A stretch of DNA of 57,675 bases. Source: Candidatus Limnocylindrales bacterium (lineage in GTDB: Bacteria; Moduliflexota; Moduliflexia; Moduliflexales; JAUQPW01). The notes below the pieces were generated by a model. It made no database searches. It saw only the letters and a program-made list of their open reading frames with translations, and was not told the DNA's origin. Shown in pieces: positions 650 through 35,916 of the stretch. The DNA lies in assembly GCA_035559535.1 (NCBI GenBank), contig DATMBG010000057.1:1-57675 (forward strand). Reading direction: 5' to 3'. Numbering within the stretch: position 1 is the first letter of the stretch; each line of letters starts with the position of its first letter. Made by a program: the position numbers and the translations under genes.

Positions 650-1927
650 ATGGGGAGTAAAACCGATGCTAATCTTCAAGTCGCCCTGGCCGGAGAAGCG
701 GATGCAAATCGTCGCTATATTGCTTATGGAATTCAGGCTTTTACGGAAGGTTATCCGGATATTGCCCAACTCTTCTTTGAGGCAGCCGGTGCAGAAACTA
801 TCCACGCACTGAATCATCTCCACGTTTTAGGTGCGGTCCACTCGACTCGAGAGAATTTGATGGCGGCAGCTTATGGAGAAGATCAGGAGATTGAGGAAAT
901 GTACCCGCGCATGATCCGTGAAGCCGAGGAGGAAGGACGACAGGATGCTGCGGAAGCCTTTCGACTTTCTTTAGACCGGGAGCGCCATCATCGAGAGATG
1001 TTTCGCGCAGCCTTGGAGAAGCTAAATAAAACAACGTCGCCCCGATCTATAGAGTCTTCGTCAGATAAAGAAAGTCCAAAACCCAGAATCCACAGTTCGG
1101 AGTCTAAAGGCAGGAGCCCGGAGGTCAGAAGTCAAAGTCCAGAGTCCCGAGGCCAAAGTCGAACGGATACGGGGGTTAAGATTGGGGATTTAGGATCTAA
1201 ATTAAGAGGTATCGAGGAGTTGGAGACAGAGCCGGCCCGGATCGAACGTCTCTCCAACATTCGGGAAGTCATATTTGGGGCACAGGATGCACTGGTATCA
1301 ACTTTCTCTGTAGTTGCGGGTTTGGCAGCTGCAGAAACCTCGAATCATATTGTACTTTTAGCAGGGGCTATATCGGCTATAGCCGGAATTTTATCCATGT
1401 CGGCAGGCACTTTTTTATCGTCTCGGGCCCAGCGCCAGGTTTACGAAGCTGAACTTGCGAAAGAACGTCGAGAAGTTCGGGAAAAGCCCGGGGAAGAGAT
1501 TGCAGAATTGATGGCAGCCCTTGTAGCCCGGGGTATGTCGCGGAATGATGCGGTAGAGGTAACTCGACGCATAGGTCGTCACCCGGATCTTTTACTGGAA
1601 ATCCTTGCTGTCTTCGAATTAGGGCTTGCTCCACAAAGACTTGGGACTCCTGTTCGGGATGCCCTGATCATGGCAGCGGCCTTTGGAGCTGCCTCTCTCA
1701 TTCCTCTCTTTCCTTTCCTATTCCCCAACATCCATATCGATCTGGCCATATCCGGTCTGTTGACGCTTACAGCCCTTTTTGTCATGGGTGTGGCAAAAGC
1801 AGCTCTGGCCGGATTGGCAAGGATACGATCGGGTATCGAAGTTATGCTAGTAGGAGCCGGATCAGGTTTAATAGGCTATGCCCTGGGACGTTTGGCCTCG
1901 CTACTTTTAGGAGTGAATATAGGATAG
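650..1927 (+). CDS. mbfA: Rubrerythrin-VIT1 fusion, membrane ferritin/iron exporter MbfA
   Basis: This 425-residue fusion has a rubrerythrin-type di-iron domain (residues about 8-125) joined to a VIT1/CCC1 membrane domain (about 203-425). Di-iron ligand motifs are visible: E16, E49-x-x-H52, E91 and E111-x-x-H114. The membrane part opens with REVIFGAQDALVSTFSVVAG, the standard VIT1 first helix, and has about five hydrophobic segments. In Bradyrhizobium and Agrobacterium MbfA exports iron from the inner membrane and protects against peroxide; the same role is inferred here. It starts at an ATG with AGGAGG upstream. The linker (about 127-200) is much longer than in known MbfA proteins. Residues 142-176 repeat every seven residues (SPEVRSQ, SPESRGQ) because the DNA beneath is a heptamer repeat. 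Confidence 0.9.
   Translation: MGSKTDANLQVALAGEADANRRYIAYGIQAFTEGYPDIAQLFFEAAGAETIHALNHLHVLGAVHSTRENLMAAAYGEDQEIEEMYPRMIREAEEEGRQDAAEAFRLSLDRERHHREMFRAALEKLNKTTSPRSIESSSDKESPKPRIHSSESKGRSPEVRSQSPESRGQSRTDTGVKIGDLGSKLRGIEELETEPARIERLSNIREVIFGAQDALVSTFSVVAGLAAAETSNHIVLLAGAISAIAGILSMSAGTFLSSRAQRQVYEAELAKERREVREKPGEEIAELMAALVARGMSRNDAVEVTRRIGRHPDLLLEILAVFELGLAPQRLGTPVRDALIMAAAFGAASLIPLFPFLFPNIHIDLAISGLLTLTALFVMGVAKAALAGLARIRSGIEVMLVGAGSGLIGYALGRLASLLLGVNIG
1073..1163 (+). repeat. Heptamer tandem repeat inside mbfA (13 units)
   Basis: Thirteen consecutive 7-nt units, degenerate around AGTCCAA/AGTCCAG, lie in frame in the mbfA linker. Three units equal 21 nt, so the peptide repeats every seven residues. 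The same unit family fills several intergenic gaps in this window, for example 30664-30734. Confidence 0.85.
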
Positions 1928-1932
1928 TTCGT

Positions 1933-1988
1933 GGTCTGTTGTCCGCCGTTTGTTGGTTAAAGACTACGGGCTCCAGACTACGGATCAA
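1933..1988. repeat. Heptamer repeat between mbfA and acnA
   Basis: Eight 7-nt units directly after mbfA, changing from a GGTCTGT/TGTCCGC type to AGACTAC-type units. AGACTAC occurs at 1961 and again at 1975. The element fills almost the whole gap to acnA. Confidence 0.7.
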
Positions 1989-1993
1989 TAATT

Positions 1994-4705
1994 ATGGAAA
2001 CCCGTAAACTGAACTCTTTCGGTACCAAGTCTGTATTGAAAGTGGACGAGCAGTCCTTCGATTTTTTCTCTCTAGAAGCATTGGAACGTGCCGGTGTAGG
2101 TCAGATTTCCAGACTTCCTTTTTCTCTGAAGATTATGCTTGAAAATTTGCTGCGCCATGAGGATGGGCGGGCGGTAACCCGGGATGATATTGAAATTCTT
2201 AGTCGTTCGGCATCTCAGGCCTGGGTTGAAGAGGAAATCGCCTTTCAACCAGCCCGGGTGTTAATGCAGGATTTCACCGGTGTGCCTGCTCTTGTGGATC
2301 TGGCCGTTATGCGAGATGTCATCCAACAGTTTGGTGGGGATCCAAAAAAGATTAATCCCTTGCAACCTGTTGATCTGGTCATCGACCATTCGGTACAGGT
2401 CGATCAATTTGGAACGGCAACCGCTTTCAATTACAATGCCGAGCTCGAGTTTCAGCGTAACAGAGAACGCTATGTCTTTTTAAAGTGGGGACAGAACGCA
2501 TTTAAAAACTTTCGAACCCTTCCCCCTGATATGGGTATTGTCCACCAGGTGAACCTTGAATATCTGGCCCAGGTTGTTTTTAGAGAAGAAAAAGATGGAC
2601 GTATCCTGGTTTACCCTGATACCCTGGTAGGTACAGACTCCCACACCACCATGATTAACGGTATGGGAGTGGTTGGATGGGGAGTTGGTGGGATCGAGGC
2701 GGAGGCAGCCATGTTAGGGCAACCCCTTTCTATGTTAATCCCCCAAGTTGTCGGGTTCAGACTTTCTGGGGAACTACCTCCCGGGGCCACCGCAACGGAC
2801 GTAGTCCTGACGGTTACTCAGATGCTTCGGGCAAAAGGGGTGGTAGGAAAGTTTGTTGAGTTCTATGGCCCCGGAGTGAGTCGGTTAAGCCTCGCAGATC
2901 GGGCTACCATTGCCAATATGGCTCCGGAATACGGAGCCACCATCGGATTCTTCCCGGTGGATGAAGAGACTTTAAACTATCTTCGTCTGACAGGACGGGA
3001 TCCGAACCTTATCAAACTGGTGGAGGCCTATACTAAAGCCCAGGGCCTATTCCGTACCGATCAGACCCCTGACCCGGTCTTCCTGGATACCATCGAGTTA
3101 GATTTAAGTACCGTACAGCCCTGTCTGGCCGGACCCCGGCGACCCCAAGATCGGGTACCACTTACGGAGGCCAAATCCGAATTTCAACGGGCCTTGGCTT
3201 CCATGTTGGGGGGCTCATTCCCAGGGACCAAAAATGGGCGAGTTGTTGTAGAGATGAATAACGAGCGTTTTGAATTAAGCCATGGCTCTGTAGCCATTGC
3301 CGCGATTACCAGTTGTACCAATACTTCCAATCCTTCCGTTATGATTGGAGCAGGTATATTGGCCAAGAAAGCAGTTGAGAAAGGTCTCAAAGTTAAACCC
3401 TGGGTTAAAACAAGCCTGGCCCCGGGGTCCCGGGTGGTAACAGATTACCTGAAAGAAGCAGGATTGATGCCTTACCTGGAAGCGCTACGTTTCCACCTGG
3501 TGGGATACGGCTGTACAACCTGTATTGGTAATAGCGGACCGTTACCTCAACCCATTGCAGAGGCAATACGTGAAGCCAAACTTGTTGTGGCAGCTGTTCT
3601 TAGCGGAAATCGTAATTTTGAAGGACGAATCAATCCCCTGGTACGGGCCAACTATCTCGCCTCCCCCCCTTTGGTCGTCGCCTATGCCATTGCAGGACAT
3701 ATGAATATCGATCTATACCACGAACCCTTGGGGTATAGTCCCAGTGGGGAACCTGTTTATTTGAAGGATATCTGGCCATCCCAAAGGGAAATTCAAGAAG
3801 CCATCCAAACTGCAGTTCAAACCAGAATGTTTCATAAAGTGTATGAGGAGGCTTTCAAAGGAGATGAACGATGGAGGGCTCTTGAGGCTCCTATGGGAGA
3901 CCTCTTCCAGTGGGATCCCCATTCGACCTATGTTAAACGACCTCCTTACTTCGAGGGTATGACCCTGGAAGTTCCGCCCCTCAAAAACATTTATAACGCC
4001 CGGGTATTGGCAGTGTTAGGGGATTCGGTCACAACCGATCATATCTCGCCGGCCGGCTCTATTGGGGTGGATACTCCGGCAGGTAAGTATCTTATAAGCC
4101 TTGGGGTAGATCCTAAAGACTTCAATTCTTACGGAGCCCGTCGGGGTAACCATGAGGTCATGATGCGCGGAACCTTTGCCAACATCCGCCTGCGTAATCT
4201 CATGGTACCGGGAACAGAAGGTGGCTGGACGGTTCATCTACCAGACGGTGAAAAGATGACCATTTACGAGGCGTCCGAAAAATATCGGAACGAGGGAGTA
4301 CCTCTGATTGTTATGGCAGGTAAAGAATATGGATCCGGCTCTTCCCGAGACTGGGCTGCTAAGGGCCCCTATTTGCTGGGGATAAAAGCCATCATCGCCG
4401 AAAGCTTCGAGCGTATCCACCGGAGCAATTTGATCGGTTTTGGAGTTCTTCCCCTCCAGTTTAAAGAGGGTGAAAATCGAGAAACCTTGGGACTTACCGG
4501 ATTCGAAACCTATAGCCTGGAAGGAATCGCCGATGGGCTTAAACCCCATCAAATAATTCCGGTCAGAGTCAAGAAAAAGGATGGAACGGAAAGGATCTTT
4601 GAAACCATCGCCCGTATCGATACGCCCATCGAAGTTCAATATTATCGACATGGAGGAATACTTCACTATGTGCTGAGGCAAATAATCCAACAGAAAAACT
4701 CTTAG
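1994..4705 (+). CDS. acnA: Aconitate hydratase A
   Basis: A 903-residue aconitase of the AcnA/IRP1 type, close to the family length of about 890. It interconverts citrate and isocitrate in the TCA cycle in the cytoplasm. The three [4Fe-4S] ligands are visible as C441 (SCTNTSNPS) and C507/C510 ([13 protein letters not shown]). The swivel domain carries the active-site loop [16 protein letters not shown] near residues 775-790. The start at ATG 1994 has little Shine-Dalgarno because a heptamer repeat abuts it. It lies on the same strand as mbfA and the sdh genes, but repeat-filled gaps on both sides make one operon uncertain. Confidence 0.96.
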
Positions 4706-17634: not shown

Positions 17635-18657
17635 GGGAACGTAGGGCATCTTCTTCCCTATCGCTTCTGCGACCCTTCGACAGGTCTTCATGAGCTCCAT
17701 GAATACATGGGGATAGGTGGCCTGGGGACCATCGCAGAGGGCTTCAGCCGGGTTTACATGGACTTCGATCATAAGCCCATGGGCACCGGCAGCTACAGCA
17801 GCCAGGGCCATGGCCGGAACGTAATCCCGTTTACCCAGGGCATGACTGGGATCTGCGATAATGGGAAGATGGCTAAGACTCTTTACCACCGGAATGGCAC
17901 TGAGATCGAAGGTGTTTCGGGTTGAATCCTCATAGGTACGGATTCCTCGCTCACAGAGGACAATCTGATTGTTCCCTTCCGATCGAATATACTCTGCAGA
18001 CATGAGAAGTTCCTTAATAGTTCCACTGATCCCCCTCTTTAACAAGACCGGTTTATTCGTCATACCTACCTCTTTGAGCAAGGTAAAGTTTTGTGAGTTA
18101 CGGGCTCCAATTTGAATCATGTCAGAATACTTGGCTACCACATCGATATCTCGAGCATCCATCAACTCGGTTACAACCGGTAATCCGGTCTCTTCCCGGG
18201 CTTTTGCTAAAAGTTTAAGACCTTCTACCCCAAGCCCTTGAAAACTGTAAGGGGAAGTTCTCGGTTTAAAGGCTCCTCCCCTCAATATTCTTCCCCCCGC
18301 CGCCTTGACGGCTAAAGCAGCCTGGATCAATAACTTTTCATTTTCCACCGCACAGGGCCCCGCCATGACAACAACCTCATCTCCACCGATTTCCACATCT
18401 CCAACCTTTACAATGGTATCTTGGGGTTTAAAATCCCGGCTAACCAATTTATATTCTTTTAAAATAAGTACCACTTTTTCTACCATGGGTAAGGCTTCAA
18501 AAATTTCCCTTCTAGAAGGAGCATCTGAACCGATGGCCCCTATGACCGTGCGTTCCGCCCCGGTAGATAAATGGGGAGTTAATCCTACCTGCCTGACTTT
18601 TTCCATAACCTGATGGATTTCTTCTTCAGAAGTATGGGGTTTTAAAACGATAATCAT
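17626..18657 (-). CDS. aroF: DAHP synthase, type I-beta with N-terminal regulatory domain
   Basis: This 343-residue enzyme condenses phosphoenolpyruvate and erythrose-4-phosphate, the first step to aromatics. Residues 1-70 are the ferredoxin-like ACT-type regulatory domain seen in Thermotoga DAHP synthase. The catalytic barrel follows, with [37 protein letters not shown] and DPSHALG. The start is ATG 18657 ([13 protein letters not shown]), as in homologues; a TTG three codons upstream borders a repeat and is not used. The regulatory domain suggests feedback inhibition by an aromatic amino acid. Confidence 0.95.
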
Positions 18658-18665
18658 AAAACTCA

Positions 18666-18743
18666 AAGTACAAGTACCGTGTACTGAGTACCGGATGGGG
18701 AAAAATTCAGTACCCGGTACCCATTACCCAGTACCCAGCACCT
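18666..18743. repeat. Heptamer hairpin between hisC and aroF, entering hisC
   Basis: Two arms of 7-nt units (AGTACCG/TGTACTG left, AGTACCC/GGTACCC right) flank an 8-nt A-rich centre. The right arm contains the hisC stop codon and the codons for its final VLGTG residues. Confidence 0.85.
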
Positions 18744-19830: not shown

Positions 19831-19839
19831 AAAAATAAG

Positions 19840-19908
19840 AAGTCAGGAGTCAGAGGTCAGGAGTCAAAAACTCTCCTTCCAATTCCTGACTTCTGATTCC
19901 TGACTCCT
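19840..19908. repeat. Heptamer hairpin between pheA and hisC
   Basis: The left arm (19840-19866) is GGAGTCA/GAGGTCA units and the right arm (19884-19908) their complement. The two can pair over about 22 bp. It occupies nearly all of the gap and lies directly upstream of the hisC GTG start. Confidence 0.85.
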
Positions 19909-19911
19909 TTT

Positions 19912-21012
19912 TTAGGTTTTGGTAGCTGCTTTTGGATAAGATCCCAGGATTTTTAAAAAAATTGTTTCCTTTTCCAATTCCTGAAGGGCCTGCTTGATGT
20001 TTTCATCCTCCAGGTGGCCTTCAAAATCCAGGAAAAAATAGTAATCCCAGGCTTTGTGTCTGGAAGGTCTCGATTCGATTTTAGTTAAATTAATATTATT
20101 TTTAGCAAAAATACCTAGAATCTCAAACAAAATTCCTACACGATCCTTCACAGAAAAAATGATGGAAGTTTTATCGGAACCTGTTTTTTCCCGGATTTTA
20201 TTTCCTATGACCAAAAACCGGGTGAGATTATTCGGATTATCTTGAATATTTCCTCGAATAATTCTCAAATTGTAGAGTTCGGCTGCCAGCTTGCTGGCAA
20301 TAGCGCCGCAGGATGGGTCTTCACTGGCTATTTCCGCCGCTTTGGCGGTACTTTCCACCTCTATCAGGGGAATAGCAGGAACATTCCGTTCTAACCAATC
20401 TCGACACTGAGCCAGAGCCTGAGGGTGAGAACAGATTCTCCGGATCTTGTCCAATTCCCCTGTTTTAGAAAGAAGGTTCTGGGAGATTTCTAAACGGATT
20501 TCTCCGCAGATTTTCAAGGGAGATTCTATAAAAAGATCCAGCGTATGGGTTACAACCCCTTCGGTGGAATTTTCTATAGGAACCACTCCAAAGTCAGCTT
20601 CCTTGACCTCGACCAATCTAAAAACTTGCTTGATACTTTCCGTTGGAATATATTGGACCGAAAAGCCGAAATACTCCGTGCAGGCCTGATGGGTAAATGT
20701 TGCCTTTGGACCCAGGTAAGTTACCCGAACAGGTTTTTCCAGAGCCAGGGAGGCCGATAAAATCTCCTTGAAAATATTCCGAATAGCTTCATTGGGAAAA
20801 ACTCCCGGATTTAATTTTTCTAATCGTTCATAAATTTCCCGTTCCCGCTCCGGTGCATACCAATCCCAATTTGCTTTTCTTTTGAGTTCCCCGACTCGAA
20901 TGACCATTTCTGCCCGTTTGGTTAGCAGAGCAAGGATTTCGTTATCGATTTTATCAATTTCTTTGCGCAGATTTATAATTTCATCCATGGATTTTCTAAT
21001 CGCTCCCATCAT
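19912..21012 (-). CDS. pheA: Bifunctional chorismate mutase / prephenate dehydratase
   Basis: This 366-residue P-protein converts chorismate to prephenate and then phenylpyruvate. Residues about 9-95 are an AroQ-type chorismate mutase (LRKEIDKIDNEILALL). Residues 97-275 are prephenate dehydratase (YLGPKATFTHQA, VPIENSTEG, and LTRFLVIG, which carries the catalytic Thr). Residues about 283-360 are an ACT domain with the GxLF-type SVKDRVGILFEIL and ESRPSR, which binds phenylalanine for feedback inhibition. It is the first gene of the operon, behind a probable sigma-70 promoter. The start could be ATG 21012 or ATG 20988. Confidence 0.96.
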   Translation of the reverse strand: MMGAIRKSMDEIINLRKEIDKIDNEILALLTKRAEMVIRVGELKRKANWDWYAPEREREIYERLEKLNPGVFPNEAIRNIFKEILSASLALEKPVRVTYLGPKATFTHQACTEYFGFSVQYIPTESIKQVFRLVEVKEADFGVVPIENSTEGVVTHTLDLFIESPLKICGEIRLEISQNLLSKTGELDKIRRICSHPQALAQCRDWLERNVPAIPLIEVESTAKAAEIASEDPSCGAIASKLAAELYNLRIIRGNIQDNPNNLTRFLVIGNKIREKTGSDKTSIIFSVKDRVGILFEILGIFAKNNINLTKIESRPSRHKAWDYYFFLDFEGHLEDENIKQALQELEKETIFLKILGSYPKAATKT

Positions 21013-21492
21013 CTGTTAAAAGTGCTAAATTTTTATTTAAAAGAGAGTTGGAATAAAAGTCAAGAGGAAAAGAAGTTTTAGAGGAGAATTTTTTCTTGCC
21101 AAACCGGTTGGGTCCCTGTAGCCTGATATCCAGTTCCTTTAGAAAGACGGAGCTTTTAAGGATTTATCAAGGTTAACTTTACAAGGTCATAATACATTGT
21201 TTATTTAATTTTGACCTTCTGGAGCTGCTTTCACTCCCCAACTCTCCTCTTCTACAGCGTGGGAGAGGAGCCGGGGGTGAGGGTTGCTTAAAAGTTAAGC
21301 AAAACTAAGTGTGAAGTTAATTCCGGGTAACTCTCTGTCCCCACCGCCAACCCCTCTCCCGAAGTTTCAGGAGAAGGGGCGCTGGGGGAGTTGATTAGGA
21401 GATTTGCTGGCTTCCTTTGTAGGAGAAGAGGAGCTGGGGGTGAGGGCAGAAAGGGTTATTCAAACTTAACTTTACAGAGTAATAATTAATTT
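21013..21492. repeat. Divergent intergenic region with nested inverted repeats
   Basis: 480 bp. Near pheA it holds that operon's promoter. From about 21215 to 21452 it is a large imperfect palindrome: CTTTCACTCCCCAACTC on the left faces GAGCTGGGGGTGAGGG on the right, with inner pairs around GGGAGAGGAGCCGGGGG and CCAACCCCTCTCCC. Similar CCCTCACCCCC/CTCTCC hairpins occur widely in bacteria. A direct repeat TTAACTTTACA lies at both ends (about 21173 and 21466). No gene is seen. Confidence 0.6.
21035..21063 (-). promoter_or_regulatory. Probable sigma-70 promoter of the pheA-rpsA operon
   Basis: On the minus strand TTGACT (21063-21058) and TTAAAT (21040-21035) are 17 bp apart, 23 bp before the pheA ATG. 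It is the only good promoter-like pair found between pheA and rpsA. Confidence 0.5.
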
Positions 21493-24311: not shown

Positions 24312-24436
24312 GATGTAGGGGAGTGTGGGAGTAGGGGAGTGTGGGGGTATGGGGGTGTGGAGGCATAGGTAAGTCCCCCTCACTTCCATACTTCCATACT
24401 TCCATACCCCCACACCCCCGTACTTCTACACTCTTC
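24312..24436. repeat. Octamer hairpin between the lipoprotein gene and lysA
   Basis: Seven 8-nt units (GGAGTGTG/GGAGTAGG type) at 24312-24367 face seven complementary units (TACTTCCA/TACCCCCA type) at 24381-24436 across a 13-nt centre. It fills the gap and extends the lysA frame upstream. The same octamer family is inserted inside rlmB (35614-35701). Confidence 0.9.
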
Positions 24437-29556: not shown

Positions 29557-30654
29557 TTAATCCGGTACCAGTGCTACTCGAATGACCTGACGCTGAAAGG
29601 CCTTTTCAAACGCCTGGTTGATATCGGTTAGCTTGAACTTATGAGAAATGATCTTTTGATAGGGGTATTTATGAAGTGTTCTCTTCAGAAAACCCAGGGT
29701 ACGTGGAATGACCCAGGGTTCGTAAACAATGACACCCAGAATGGTTTTAGCCCCCCGTACGGCCTGAGCCGGGTCTATTTCTCCTTTAAGTCCCAGGTTA
29801 ATATTTCCGATCCAAAGATATCTTCCGCCGGGTCGAAGCATTTCCAGGCCTTCTTCGAGGACTACGGGAGATCCTACGAGTTCGGCCACCACATCTGCTC
29901 CGATATTTCGGGTGAGGTTTTTAATTTCGGCCACCCGGCTCTTACTATCTGTTTCATCGGCATTAATCACATGATCTGCTCCGAACTCCCTGGCCAGTTC
30001 TAAGCGATCCTTCAACTTATCGATCACGATGACCTGTCCGGCTCCCATTTCTTTGGCAATTGCAGTAGCGTAAAGTCCCAGACCTCCGGCACCCTGAACA
30101 ACCACTGTATCCCCCAGCACCACACCTATTTTATAAAGACCATAGACGAGTTGAGCAAAGGCACAGTTAATAGGGGATACCACCTCATCAGGTAATTCAT
30201 CGGGTACTTTAAAAAATACCTGACCCGGTCCCATATAGTAATACTCTCCAAAAGCCCCCACGAAATGAGGGGGTTCCTCACAGGATACTCCCAGCCAATG
30301 TTTATAACGGTTGGGGCATCCTGGTTGTCCGGTTAAACAGGCCCAGCATTTACCACAGGGACGGAAGTAAGAGTAAACCACGCGGTCTCCGACTTTAACA
30401 GGCTCTCCCAGACTGTCGGTTTTAACATTTTCACCCAACGCATAGATCCTACCCGTCATTTCATGCCCCAGGATCTGGGGAATACCACTTGGAATTCCGG
30501 GTCCCAATCCTTTCAGGAAGTGCAGATCAGAACCACAGATGTTGGCCATGGTAATTTTTAATACAAGGGAATTGGGATCTGGAGTAGGCACGGGATATTC
30601 TCGAATTTCTAAAGGTTTTCCTACTCCTGTAAAAACGGCGGCTTTACCTTTCAT
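29557..30654 (-). CDS. Zinc-dependent medium-chain alcohol dehydrogenase
   Basis: A 365-residue MDR-family dehydrogenase. Catalytic-zinc Cys is in NICGSDLHF, with GHEMTGRI downstream. The structural zinc lobe CGKCWACLTGQPGC is complete. The Rossmann motif GAGGLGLYA is followed by VIVIDKLKDR, where the Asp suggests NAD rather than NADP. It resembles polyol or threonine dehydrogenases, but the substrate cannot be assigned. It begins at ATG 30654 beside a heptamer hairpin; neighbours give no pathway clue. Confidence 0.85.
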   Translation of the reverse strand: MKGKAAVFTGVGKPLEIREYPVPTPDPNSLVLKITMANICGSDLHFLKGLGPGIPSGIPQILGHEMTGRIYALGENVKTDSLGEPVKVGDRVVYSYFRPCGKCWACLTGQPGCPNRYKHWLGVSCEEPPHFVGAFGEYYYMGPGQVFFKVPDELPDEVVSPINCAFAQLVYGLYKIGVVLGDTVVVQGAGGLGLYATAIAKEMGAGQVIVIDKLKDRLELAREFGADHVINADETDSKSRVAEIKNLTRNIGADVVAELVGSPVVLEEGLEMLRPGGRYLWIGNINLGLKGEIDPAQAVRGAKTILGVIVYEPWVIPRTLGFLKRTLHKYPYQKIISHKFKLTDINQAFEKAFQRQVIRVALVPD

Positions 30655-30663
30655 TTCAAAAAA

Positions 30664-30734
30664 AATCCAAAGTCCAGAATCCAGAGTCTAAAGTTCCGAA
30701 GAACCGGAAACTTTGGACTCCGAACTTTAGAATG
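30664..30734. repeat. Heptamer hairpin upstream of the dehydrogenase gene
   Basis: Five units of the AGTCCAG/AATCCAG type face GGACTCC/GAACTTT units across a short centre. The unit is the one found inside mbfA (1073-1163). Confidence 0.9.
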
Positions 30735-32785: not shown

Positions 32786-35065
32786 CTACTGGACTTTGAT
32801 ATTCTTGGCCTCCAGGGTAGTCCCCATAGCTCTTTGCAAATTGGCCAAAGATTTATTATAATCTGTTATGGCTCGAACTTCGTTACTTACGGCTGTGGCA
32901 AGATCACTTTGAAATTGAAGCACGTTAAAGTTGGTTGACAGACCTTCGTTGAATTTTTTCTGCTCGGCATCTAATTGTTTTTCGGCAAGCTCCCGAGCTA
33001 TCCGGGTTGACTCGACGCGTTTAATATTCGTACGAATTTGCCGAACTGCCTGACGAACATCGAGGATAATTTGTTGTTCGAGATTCTTAATGGTAACCTC
33101 GGCCTGTTCTGCCGCCAGCTTGGCAACGGCATAGTTACTTTTGGCAGCTCTGTTTCCCAGGGGAAACTCGAAATTAATCCCGGCCTGCCAGGTATAGAAA
33201 TCACCGCTGGTTAATTCATTGAGATTATCCCCGTAGCTGGCCCCCAAACCGTTAAGTCCTAAAGCTCCCTGGAAATTGAGAGCAGGTAATATTTGATTTC
33301 GGTTGGTTAAGACATCAATATTCCGGTTTTTTAAGTTAATTCGAGCCTGCACCAGTTCAGGACGTTTTTGAAGGGCTATTTTAATACTTTCTTCCACAGA
33401 TACATCCCGAATCTCGAAAGGCGGTTTATCCAGCGGCACGATCGAAACATCCCAAAATTTCCTATCCCCTGCCTGGAGATTGAGAATCCTTTTTAAATTA
33501 TCTTCGGTATCTCGTAGGGTTTCTTCAGCAACGAGAACTCCTTCCTCTCTGGCTGCGGCACTGGCTTCAGCCTGCAAGACCTCAATGGGAGCCAGAGTTC
33601 CTACTTCTACCTGAGCCCTATTAATTCTTATAAGATCCTGGGCCAATTTCAAGGCAAGCCGTTTGGCATCCAAATCACCAATGGCAAAAACCAGATCCCA
33701 ATATGCATTCTGAACATCGGTGATAACTTGAATAACCCGACCCTCCAGGACGCTTACGGAAATATCACGGTTGTTTCTGGCAATATAGATAGGGGCCTTA
33801 TTGACGGCCGTTCCAAACCCCCTGAGAAGCGGCTGGGTGACCGTCAACAACCCGTTGGATCCATAAGCAGGATTAATAATAGCCAATGGACTATTCGTTT
33901 GCCGCCAAGAATTATTAAAGGCAAAGGAATATGAGGTACCTGGACTTAGAGTTTGTTGAATCCCGGCATTAAAATTTCGCGTTTCTTCTTCTGAGCCGGT
34001 AGTCTGGCTGGCTGCCGGAGTCAGACTTTTGGAGGCGCTGCCATTAGCTACTACCGTAGGATCGAATTTAGCTTCTGCTACAGTAATTCTTTCGTTGTTA
34101 ATTTTTGGATTGAATCTTTCAATGGCAATATCAAAGTTGTTAACCAAGGCCAGATTAATCGCTTCCTCCAGGGACAGGAAGACTTTGGGAAGTTCTTCTC
34201 CGGGCTTAGCCGATGGAGGGGAAGGTTGTTGGGTCGTAGGGGAAGGAGTAGTTGTTGGAGCTTGAGGGGTTCCAGTTGAAGGGGCTGGTTGGGTAGTTGC
34301 CGGGACCTGAGGTTTCCCGGTTGTTGTAGCCGGAGTCTGCGGCCTTCGAGTCGAAGGGGTCGGCGATGGAGTTATGGGGGCCTGAGGTTTCCCGGCTGCA
34401 GGTGCCGGAGCTTGCGGCTTTCGAGTCGATGGAACCGGTTGGGTGGTTGCAGGGGCTTGAGAACTCCCCGTTGAAGGCGCCGGTTGGGTAACCGCTGGAG
34501 TCTGGGAAGCTCCTGGGGATGGAACTGGTTGGGTAGTTGCGGGGACTTGAGAACTCCCCGTTGAAGGCGCCGGTTGAGTCGTTGCAGGAGCTTGAGGAGA
34601 CTCTGTTGAAGGTGCGGGCTGAGAAGTCGTCGAGGCCTTGGATTTCTTTGTTCGAGAACCGGGCCTGGAGGGTGTTACCTGGGATTTTTTAGGGGACAGC
34701 GGTATTGGGGTCGGTGTTGGAGAAGATTCCGGAGGTGGAATCGGGGGATTAGACCCAGGAACCTGGTCTGTTGAGGGGGTAGGAGAGGGATTTTGAGTCG
34801 AAGGGGTGGATTCTGCCCCTTGAGAAGTATCAGCTGGAGAAGGATTCGCCGGAGTCTCCTGCGTAGCAGCAAGTATTAAGGACTGTGGGATTTCACTTCC
34901 TGGAGGGGGGAAAGAGGCCGGGTTTTGAAGATAATTTACTAAGATGGCTTTAGCCCGAAGTTGATCCCGGACTGTAATGGAAGAATTGCCTCCTTCGGTT
35001 GGAATAAATAAAAAAACAGTGGTCACTCCAATATAAATCAACAATCTATTCACTCTATATTTCAA
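32786..35065 (-). CDS. TolC-family outer-membrane efflux protein with Pro/Thr-rich repeats
   Basis: This 759-residue protein starts at TTG 35065. The start is well supported by a full AAGGAGG Shine-Dalgarno and overlaps the rlmB stop (TTGA). A signal peptide covers residues 1-25. Residues about 60-290 are low-complexity, with roughly 15-residue repeats of the form QAPATTQPAPSTGSS. Residues about 295-759 are an outer-membrane efflux protein: two OEP repeats with long helices (LSLEEAINLALVNNFDI, LVQARINLKNRNIDVL). It would form a trimeric periplasm-crossing channel. The repeat region is odd; it may span or bind peptidoglycan. Its inner-membrane partner is not adjacent; emrAB at 51678 is a candidate. 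Confidence 0.85.
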   Translation of the reverse strand: MKYRVNRLLIYIGVTTVFLFIPTEGGNSSITVRDQLRAKAILVNYLQNPASFPPPGSEIPQSLILAATQETPANPSPADTSQGAESTPSTQNPSPTPSTDQVPGSNPPIPPPESSPTPTPIPLSPKKSQVTPSRPGSRTKKSKASTTSQPAPSTESPQAPATTQPAPSTGSSQVPATTQPVPSPGASQTPAVTQPAPSTGSSQAPATTQPVPSTRKPQAPAPAAGKPQAPITPSPTPSTRRPQTPATTTGKPQVPATTQPAPSTGTPQAPTTTPSPTTQQPSPPSAKPGEELPKVFLSLEEAINLALVNNFDIAIERFNPKINNERITVAEAKFDPTVVANGSASKSLTPAASQTTGSEEETRNFNAGIQQTLSPGTSYSFAFNNSWRQTNSPLAIINPAYGSNGLLTVTQPLLRGFGTAVNKAPIYIARNNRDISVSVLEGRVIQVITDVQNAYWDLVFAIGDLDAKRLALKLAQDLIRINRAQVEVGTLAPIEVLQAEASAAAREEGVLVAEETLRDTEDNLKRILNLQAGDRKFWDVSIVPLDKPPFEIRDVSVEESIKIALQKRPELVQARINLKNRNIDVLTNRNQILPALNFQGALGLNGLGASYGDNLNELTSGDFYTWQAGINFEFPLGNRAAKSNYAVAKLAAEQAEVTIKNLEQQIILDVRQAVRQIRTNIKRVESTRIARELAEKQLDAEQKKFNEGLSTNFNVLQFQSDLATAVSNEVRAITDYNKSLANLQRAMGTTLEAKNIKVQ
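34225..34645 (-). repeat. 45-bp/15-residue minisatellite in the TolC-like gene
   Basis: About seven full and two shortened units encode PATTQPAPSTGSSQA-like peptide repeats rich in Pro, Thr, Ser and Gln. Units are in frame and partly homogenised (two copies of PAPSTGSSQ are nearly identical in DNA), so copy number may vary between strains. Confidence 0.75.
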
Positions 35066-35916
35066 CGTGTAACCTCCTTTTTTTCCCGTTGCTGCCGAAC
35101 CTCGAACATGAGGAGGGCAGCAGCAACAGAAGCATTAAGGGAAGCAATTTTACCGTATAAGGGAATAGAGATAAGAAAATCACACTTCTTTAACGTTAAG
35201 TTTTTAAGACCTTTAGATTCTCCTCCGATAACCAGGGCTACAGGTCCTTTAAGATCTACACAGTAATAAGCCTTTCCAACTTTAGGTACCGCTCCATAAA
35301 TCCAGAGACCATAATCTTTAAGCCGATCCAGGGCCGAAGCCAGATTAGAAACCCGACAAACCGGAAGATACTCGAGGGCCCCGGCTGAAGTTTTAACAAC
35401 GGTAGGGGTAAGTCCCACGGATCTCCGCTTGGGCAGAATAATCCCATGGACTCCGGCTCCTTCTGCAGAGCGCAAAATAGCCCCTAAGTTATGGGGGTCT
35501 TCAATGCCGTCTAAAAGGACGATAAAGGGAGGTTCGGTTTTTCTTTGAACTTCTTCCCATAATTCTTCCAGGGAATGGTACCGGTAAGGAGATGCGATTC
35601 CTAACACCCCTTGGGTATGAGGGGGAGGAGGGGGGGAGGGGCGGGAGTGTGAGAGGGATTCATCCGTACCTTCATATTCCCATACCCCCATACTCCCAGA
35701 CAGTCTTTCCCTCTCCTGAGCCCGTCGAGCGATCTGCTCAATTCGTTCCCTGGATTCAAATCGAATTTCAATTCCCCGGGACCGGGCCAGGTTTAGAATC
35801 TCCTGGATAGGTTTGCCCTTCCGGCCCGAGGCTATGTAGATCCTTTCAAAAGAGCGATCTGCACGAAGGGCTTCCAGTATGGGATTAACTCCCATGATTA
35901 TATTTTCTTCTCCCAA
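35062..35916 (-). CDS. rlmB: 23S rRNA (guanosine-2'-O-)-methyltransferase RlmB with repeat insert
   Basis: A 284-residue SpoU/TrmH-family enzyme that methylates G2251 of 23S rRNA using SAM. Residues 1-72 are the L30e-like substrate-binding domain (IIMGVNPILEAL). The SPOUT knot domain has LLDGIEDPHNLGAILRSAE, GESKGL and IPLYGKIASLNASVAAAL. Between them, residues 73-101 (MGVWEYEGTD ... SPPPPP) come from an octamer repeat inserted just before the conserved HTQG segment. The frame is kept, so the enzyme is probably active. The start is TTG 35916, inside the end of cysS, with a GGGGGGTGAG ribosome-binding stretch. Confidence 0.92.
   Translation of the reverse strand: MGEENIIMGVNPILEALRADRSFERIYIASGRKGKPIQEILNLARSRGIEIRFESRERIEQIARRAQERERLSGSMGVWEYEGTDESLSHSRPSPPPPPHTQGVLGIASPYRYHSLEELWEEVQRKTEPPFIVLLDGIEDPHNLGAILRSAEGAGVHGIILPKRRSVGLTPTVVKTSAGALEYLPVCRVSNLASALDRLKDYGLWIYGAVPKVGKAYYCVDLKGPVALVIGGESKGLKNLTLKKCDFLISIPLYGKIASLNASVAAALLMFEVRQQREKKEVTR
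35614..35701. repeat. Octamer hairpin inserted inside rlmB
   Basis: About eleven 8-nt units (GGTATGAG/GGGGAGGA left; TCCCATAC/CCCCATAC right) sit in frame in the interdomain linker of rlmB. Units match those upstream of lysA at 24312-24436. Confidence 0.88.

Follow-up and report, generated by a model that had tools for sequence, protein, structure and literature searches.

The inter-domain linker of a rubrerythrin-VIT1 fusion protein is encoded in part by a degenerate array of 7-nt units. This array is very probably a copy of a heptamer repeat dispersed through the genome, one that was already in place, in frame, when the genus's two known species diverged, was tolerated and then drifted, and that is one of an estimated forty or so captured arrays. 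Genes of this genome have captured array DNA, and the cleanest cases are rlmB and mutS, not the fusion gene, because their inserts are missing from same-order orthologues and present in the sister species. The source genome is a draft assembly (completeness, 95.8%; contamination, 4.1%), and the whole 57.7-kb stretch of DNA that was analysed is referred to below as the window. The sister species is G001 (JAUQPW01, MAG 'bacterium isolate JZ-2.bins.100').

Table 1. Positions of the fusion gene, its parts and the repeat arrays (window coordinates unless a locus is named)
Feature	Position	Strand	Basis
MbfA-like gene, rubrerythrin-VIT1 fusion, 425 aa	650..1927	+	ORF; Pfam; sister orthologue; Rokuibacteriota homologues
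Rubrerythrin (di-iron) domain, aa 8-121	671..1012	+	Pfam; ExxH motifs; PDB rubrerythrins
Inter-domain linker, aa 123-189, 67 aa	1016..1216	+	Homologue alignment; AlphaFold; dN/dS 0.51
13-unit degenerate heptamer array (ARAGTCC)n within linker	1071..1161	+	Unit reading; lag-7 statistics; consensus identity
Candidate decayed right arm of heptamer hairpin, TTGGGGA TTTAGGA TCTAAAT	1173..1212	+	Pairing to left arm
VIT1 membrane domain, aa 204-414	1259..1891	+	Pfam; PDB 6iu3 VIT1
Inverted intergenic heptamer array just 3' of fusion gene, AGACTAC GGGCTCC AGACTAC	1928..1990		Lag-7 peak; kept in sister species
Intergenic heptamer array with inverted arms, CAGTACC/GGGTACT type	18652..18742		Lag-7 signal
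Intergenic heptamer hairpin, AGAAGTCAGGAGTC ... TGACTTCTGATTCCTGACTCC	19831..19922		Lag-7 signal
Intergenic heptamer hairpin, AAAGTCC/AGAGTCT subfamily (as in linker)	30643..30726		Lag-7 signal, pattern match
RlmB/SpoU rRNA methyltransferase gene with in-frame octamer-array insert	35062..35916	-	Pfam; orthologue alignment
Octamer array, GGGAGTAT type, part inverted, encoding RlmB insert	35622..35701	-	Lag-8 score 21.6
MutS gene with heptamer array in domain II	L055:624-3344 = C58:240624-243344	-	Pfam; orthologue alignment
CheA histidine kinase, octamer arrays between dimerisation and ATPase parts	L044:5938-8505	-	Pfam

The heptamer array in the linker of a rubrerythrin-VIT1 protein

The fusion protein has Pfam matches to Rubrerythrin (1.5e-17) and VIT1 (5.9e-54), with ExxH motifs at aa 49 and aa 111 of the rubrerythrin domain. 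Its PDB matches are to rubrerythrins (up to 2.3e-21) and to the VIT1 structure 6iu3 (1.1e-25). An N-terminal di-iron rubrerythrin/ferritin-like domain is thus joined to a C-terminal VIT1 domain in one polypeptide, which is the domain arrangement of an MbfA-like protein. MbfA iron export and its control by Irr have been described in Agrobacterium and Bradyrhizobium (PMC7762939), and the fusion is, from its family, a predicted iron exporter. A plasmid search returned VIT proteins and no full-length rubrerythrin-VIT1 fusion. In both species of the genus an aconitase gene (1994-4705 in the window) lies directly 3' of the fusion gene, which is not so at the Rokuibacteriota loci; the adjacency is a possible iron-related pairing. 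The linker is predicted to be disordered: in an AlphaFold2 model built from ten sequences only (overall pLDDT, 67.7), pLDDT falls below 50 at residues 130-194, and residues 129-178 have no secondary structure.

The sequence-only reading had described, at 1073-1163, a run of thirteen 7-nt units that is in frame and separates the di-iron domain from the membrane domain. We recover the same thirteen units, read in another phase, and they lie in frame between the two Pfam matches, which agrees with the further claim that the array is tolerated at a domain junction. Units 1 to 7 are AAAGTCC AAAACCC AGAATCC ACAGTTC GGAGTCT AAAGGCA GGAGCCC, and units 8 to 13 are GGAGGTC AGAAGTC AAAGTCC AGAGTCC CGAGGCC AAAGTCG. 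The encoded heptads are SPKPRIH, SSESKGR, SPEVRSQ and SPESRGQ, followed by a single S, so the peptide does repeat every seven residues as had been proposed.

We measured lag-7 identity over positions 1070-1165 and compared the observed value, 0.596, with three nulls of 20000 trials each. The same peptide written with the window's synonymous codons at random gave 0.290±0.047 (maximum, 0.494), codon shuffles gave 0.271±0.047, and random codons gave 0.246±0.046; the observed value was reached in 0/20000 trials of each null. The excess of 7-nt periodicity over codon-matched sequence, on which the earlier proposal depended, is therefore present in the DNA. Identity also peaks at lags 14 and 21 (0.53 and 0.54), and the remaining lags are not raised. 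When all 84-nt stretches of the window are compared, the linker array gives the strongest lag-7 signal, and the other high stretches are mostly intergenic. Tandem Repeats Finder at a score of 40 did not report the linker array because its copies are too degenerate.

These results bear on the idea that selection acted on the protein for a 7-residue S/P/E/R period, in effect a designed linker, with the DNA heptamer as a by-product. Although the linker peptide has the hydrophilic, disorder-promoting character expected of a linker, synonymous recoding never reproduces its lag-7 signal, amino acid changes in the linker are frequent between the sister species (dN/dS of 0.51), and the linker DNA matches non-coding intergenic arrays. 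We consider protein-level selection very unlikely as the source of the period.

Identity between the linker array and (ARAGTCC)n is 78%; codon shuffles give 40±3%, and 0/20000 of them reach the observed identity. Near-identical arrays occur between genes: one at 30662 in the window reads AAAATCC AAAGTCC AGAATCC and then AGAGTCT, and linker-like arrays are found elsewhere in the genome at C37:68525, C38:22721 and C51:266829. The exact sequence ARAGTCCARAGTCC occurs 5 times in the 5.6-Mb genome, once in the linker (at 1134). Genome-wide matching of units was restricted to exact and one-mismatch matches, together with lag statistics, because two-mismatch pattern counts over the whole genome showed no excess over a reversed-pattern control. 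The linker array belongs to the genome's own intergenic heptamer family, as the sequence-only reading had held. It could instead have arisen by slippage in place, within a linker that was already long and of low complexity, with a convergent match to the intergenic family and no import. A 7-nt slippage footprint has been proposed for heptamers generally (PMC4692102), and the many subfamilies with different consensus sequences in this genome suggest that arrays originate locally. However, several intergenic arrays elsewhere share the ARAGTCC consensus, which local slippage alone does not explain, and we regard in-place slippage as a doubtful, though reasonable, alternative to a dispersed copy.

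A stretch just downstream of the array, still within the linker, is a candidate right arm of a heptamer hairpin. In the sister species this stretch pairs with the left arm better than in 4978/5000 codon shuffles (22/5000 equal or beat it), and 26/1127 other windows do as well; in this genome the pairing is not significant (677/5000 codon shuffles). The RNA fold of the linker array has a z score of -1.86 in the sister species and +0.43, with no excess structure, in this genome. A decayed hairpin partner of the linker array is thus possible, and the evidence for it is suggestive in the sister species only.

Heptamer and octamer arrays across the genome and within genes

We scanned for tandem self-similarity in 1.6 Mb fetched in pieces (1.66 Mb with the window, or 30% of the 5.6-Mb genome), with score cut-offs of at least 14 for abundance and at least 20 for intragenic arrays. 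At the lower cut-off the scan gives 94 lag-7 and 115 lag-8 arrays, compared with 0 to 21 at lags 4-6 and 9-13; the 41 period-14 arrays are expected, 14 being a multiple of 7. This excess over other periods identifies two repeat families in the genome, one of heptamers and one of octamers. Heptamer units are diverse in sequence (GAAGTCA, AAAGGCA, AACAATG, ACAACGG, AGTACTC and others), and the arrays are often laid out as a left arm, a loop and a complementary right arm. By a simple measure, 16/47 heptamer and 56/95 octamer arrays score as palindromic; among random stretches the counts are 0 and 3. In two genomes of the same order, sampled at 200 kb each, arrays are nearly absent from one and few in the other.

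Heptamer arrays are mostly common to the sister species at about 10% divergence and for this reason look old. A number of octamer arrays cannot be aligned with the sister species; these look younger. At 24315-24423, at the start of a decarboxylase ORF, octamer arrays GGGAGTGT / ACTTCCAT with inverted arms align poorly with the sister species and are therefore probably young; related copies match many places in the sister genome. The intergenic stretch 21147-21426 likewise has no alignment to the sister species at its locus and resembles sequence at many other sites of the sister genome; it is another dispersed repeat.

ORFs make up 86% of the sample, yet the arrays lie mostly between genes or at the ends of ORFs, a strong depletion within ORFs. 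Arrays were counted as deep when at least 150 nt inside an ORF of at least 200 aa, by simple ORF calls. At scores of at least 20, 3 heptamer and 8 octamer arrays lie deep in ORFs, with none at lags 5, 9, 10, 11 and 13 and one at lag 4. Extrapolating from these simple ORF calls, we estimate about forty intragenic heptamer and octamer arrays in the whole genome. Host genes confirmed by Pfam encode MutS, CheA, RlmB, CtaA, a permease-ATPase fusion, a DUF2298 membrane protein, an AMP-binding ligase and others. The window also contains repeats of another type, codon-sized, at 34287-34596, where 75- and 45-nt tandem repeats, both multiples of 3, sit in an outer-membrane efflux protein gene, ORF 32786-35065 (-), N-terminal to the OEP domains.

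In RlmB, an insert of about 32 aa lies between the SpoU_sub_bind (residues 6-67) and SpoU_methylase (131-271) domains. It is absent from the same-order orthologues (G002/G003) and from E. coli RlmB (1gz0), and present in the sister species. In MutS, the same-order orthologues are about 19 residues shorter at the domain II array and E. coli MutS has about 27 fewer residues in the alignment; this insert is also shared with the sister species. The length of both arrays is unchanged between the two species. The sequence-only reading had called the linker array direct evidence that the intergenic repeat can enter genes. Entry into genes is borne out by the rlmB and mutS inserts; the fusion gene itself is a less clean case, as no fusion orthologue was found in the same-order genomes searched. 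Insertion there is consequently indistinguishable from replacement, and the repeat may have occupied or displaced a linker in which variation was already permitted.

The array in the AMP-binding ligase replaces a variable loop, with no net gain in length relative to a solved relative. Comparison with solved structures gave either no net insert or an ambiguous one for CheA, the AMP-binding ligase, a glycosyltransferase and an M16 protease, the CheA insert being of uncertain size. The M16 protease array is weak (score, 14.6) and may be due to chance.

Age, constraint and origin of the linker array

The sister orthologue of the fusion is 94% identical and carries the array, with substitutions and one 6-nt in-frame deletion, which makes the array older than the split of the genus's two known species. 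We compared constraint between the two species by the Nei-Gojobori method, on short segments with few changes throughout. On that basis dN/dS in the fusion is low in both domains (rubrerythrin, 0.03; VIT, 0.07) and higher in the linker (0.51). Also from few changes, it is 0.59 in the RlmB insert against 0.04 and 0.09 in its flanks, and 0.18 in the MutS insert against 0.08 and 0.06. These values suggest that the linker is under relaxed constraint with its frame kept. Relaxation is weaker in the MutS insert, and some captured arrays may therefore be other than neutral.

The conserved frame also bears on whether the array is a contingency locus, in which gain or loss of a 7-nt unit would shift the frame and turn the VIT1 domain off and on. 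Seven is not a multiple of three, and in many bacteria no other class of long simple repeat is as common as heptamers (PMC4679880, PMC4692102). However, the linker units are only about 60% alike, so slippage is expected to be rare, and the sister species differs by a 6-nt in-frame deletion and not by 7 or 21 nt. The mutS and rlmB arrays keep their length between species, and no frameshifted copy was seen. We rejected the array as a phase-variation repeat, its units being far from near-perfect and its copy number not shifting the frame, and we find this explanation barely credible.

The nearest full-length homologues come from Candidatus Rokuibacteriota (57-65% identity). Their linkers span 23, 41, 61, 65, 68, 74 and 93 residues, compared with 67 in this genome and 65 in the sister species, and are Ala/Pro-rich, unrelated in sequence and no higher at lag 7 than at neighbouring lags. 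Homologues from this other phylum therefore do not carry the same linker. The linker lengths do not support the earlier claim that relatives have much shorter linkers and that the repeat lengthened the tether: with nearest relatives at 23-93 residues, this tether is not unusually long. Outside this group, clearly shorter linkers were found in a distant Chloroflexi homologue (30 residues) and in two very remote fusions of a ferritin-like domain to VIT (by eye, no more than about 20).

The array might still have been recruited adaptively, as a functional tether that governs, through its length or charge, how far the ferroxidase domain extends towards the exporter. Many Rokuibacteriota homologues have linkers that are long and variable, so a certain length may be required, and the sister species has retained the frame and nearly the same length. 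Yet sequence and length vary freely among homologues, constraint appears relaxed, the remote fusions work with about 20 residues or fewer, and similar arrays lie in unrelated enzymes that have no plausible tether role. We judge adaptive recruitment unlikely.

We favour the capture of a dispersed repeat. A copy of the genomic heptamer would have come to lie in frame in a poorly constrained linker before the two known species of the genus diverged. The linker would have tolerated (ARAGTCC)n, and kept it in frame, because every reading frame of the repeat is free of stop codons and the S/P/E/R/Q peptide that it encodes is hydrophilic and disordered. Afterwards the array would have drifted, retaining only reading frame and disorder. 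We infer that the linker array is neutral or nearly neutral, and we rate the captured arrays overall as mostly neutral repeat DNA turned into disordered peptide. The arrays themselves may have arisen and spread either by polymerase slippage with palindrome formation or by way of a mobile element. We hold in even balance the broader reading that a previously unrecognised process in this lineage seeds palindromic 7- and 8-nt arrays genome-wide, mutS included, leaving dozens of conserved proteins with repeat-derived disordered segments. Such a process would constitute a heptamer/octamer protein-coding palindrome system and not a mobile element.

These cases show a route from non-coding tandem repeat DNA to protein sequence in an uncultivated bacterium, in which stop-free units persist in linkers and loops, so that ordinary proteins of this genome carry repeat-made peptides. 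Several are dated, being common to two species and absent from the sister family, and allow relaxed constraint to be measured. They also counsel caution, as a domain-junction peptide in a genome of this kind may be repeat DNA rather than an evolved tether. Because genic copies and orthologues without them give before-and-after sequences, the question of how bacterial heptamer repeats originate becomes testable.

Comparison with known repeat systems

A literature search of incomplete coverage found no earlier report of the repeat in this lineage. By analogy, the captured arrays would work like Rickettsia palindromic elements (RPEs) and cyanobacterial heptanucleotide repeats while being neither. 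RPEs and Wolbachia protein-coding palindromes were described by Ogata et al. (2000, 2002, 2005), as cited in PMC2229807. RPEs resemble the present arrays in occurring in intergenic DNA as well as in frame within conserved genes, in being palindromic, in being tolerated as inserts by enzymes and in leaving host genes open; their size, about 105-146 bp, is a further likeness. RPEs are dispersed copies of defined elements and have terminal inverted repeats (PMC2229807), whereas here the units are 7- or 8-nt tandem repeats with many consensus sequences. RlmB and MutS are RPE-like in that their inserts lie in frame in conserved genes whose orthologues are without them. We found no dispersed element that has defined ends, terminal inverted repeats and a conserved sequence; the arrays share period and hairpin form only.

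The wider cyanobacterial STRR class includes heptameric repeats of the kind known from Nostoc. The heptamers GGGAATC and GGGGA(C/T)T of Xanthomonas and Nostoc share with the present arrays a 7-nt period, tandem arrangement, a mainly intergenic location and depletion from coding sequence (PMC4692102). They differ in consensus; the arrays here are degenerate, often have inverted arms, are accompanied by an octamer family and lie repeatedly within conserved genes. The TAACTGA heptamers of marine Beggiatoaceae are also dispersed arrays, a minority of which lie in ORFs and encode a 7-residue peptide repeat, and their authors expected tolerance between protein modules (PMC4679880). We rejected identity with TAACTGA, the linker unit being ARAGTCC. 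The Beggiatoaceae repeat has one conserved unit, carries stop codons in the forward orientation and has intragenic copies mostly at ORF ends (PMC4679880), whereas here the units are many, the linker case is stop-free, and arrays lie deep in genes at domain junctions and loops.

The tandem repeats of Borgs likewise produce intrinsically disordered segments when they fall in ORFs; in contrast to the degenerate, weakly constrained 7- and 8-nt units described here, they are near-perfect, have unit lengths divisible by three and are strongly selected (PMC9879509). The host protein of the linker array corresponds to MbfA in its N-terminal ferritin-like domain and C-terminal VIT1-like membrane domain (PMC7762939). 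MbfA was described in Alphaproteobacteria (PMC7762939), whereas the present fusion, a predicted exporter, belongs to an unclassified lineage, has its nearest copies in Rokuibacteriota and joins its two domains through a heptamer-repeat linker.
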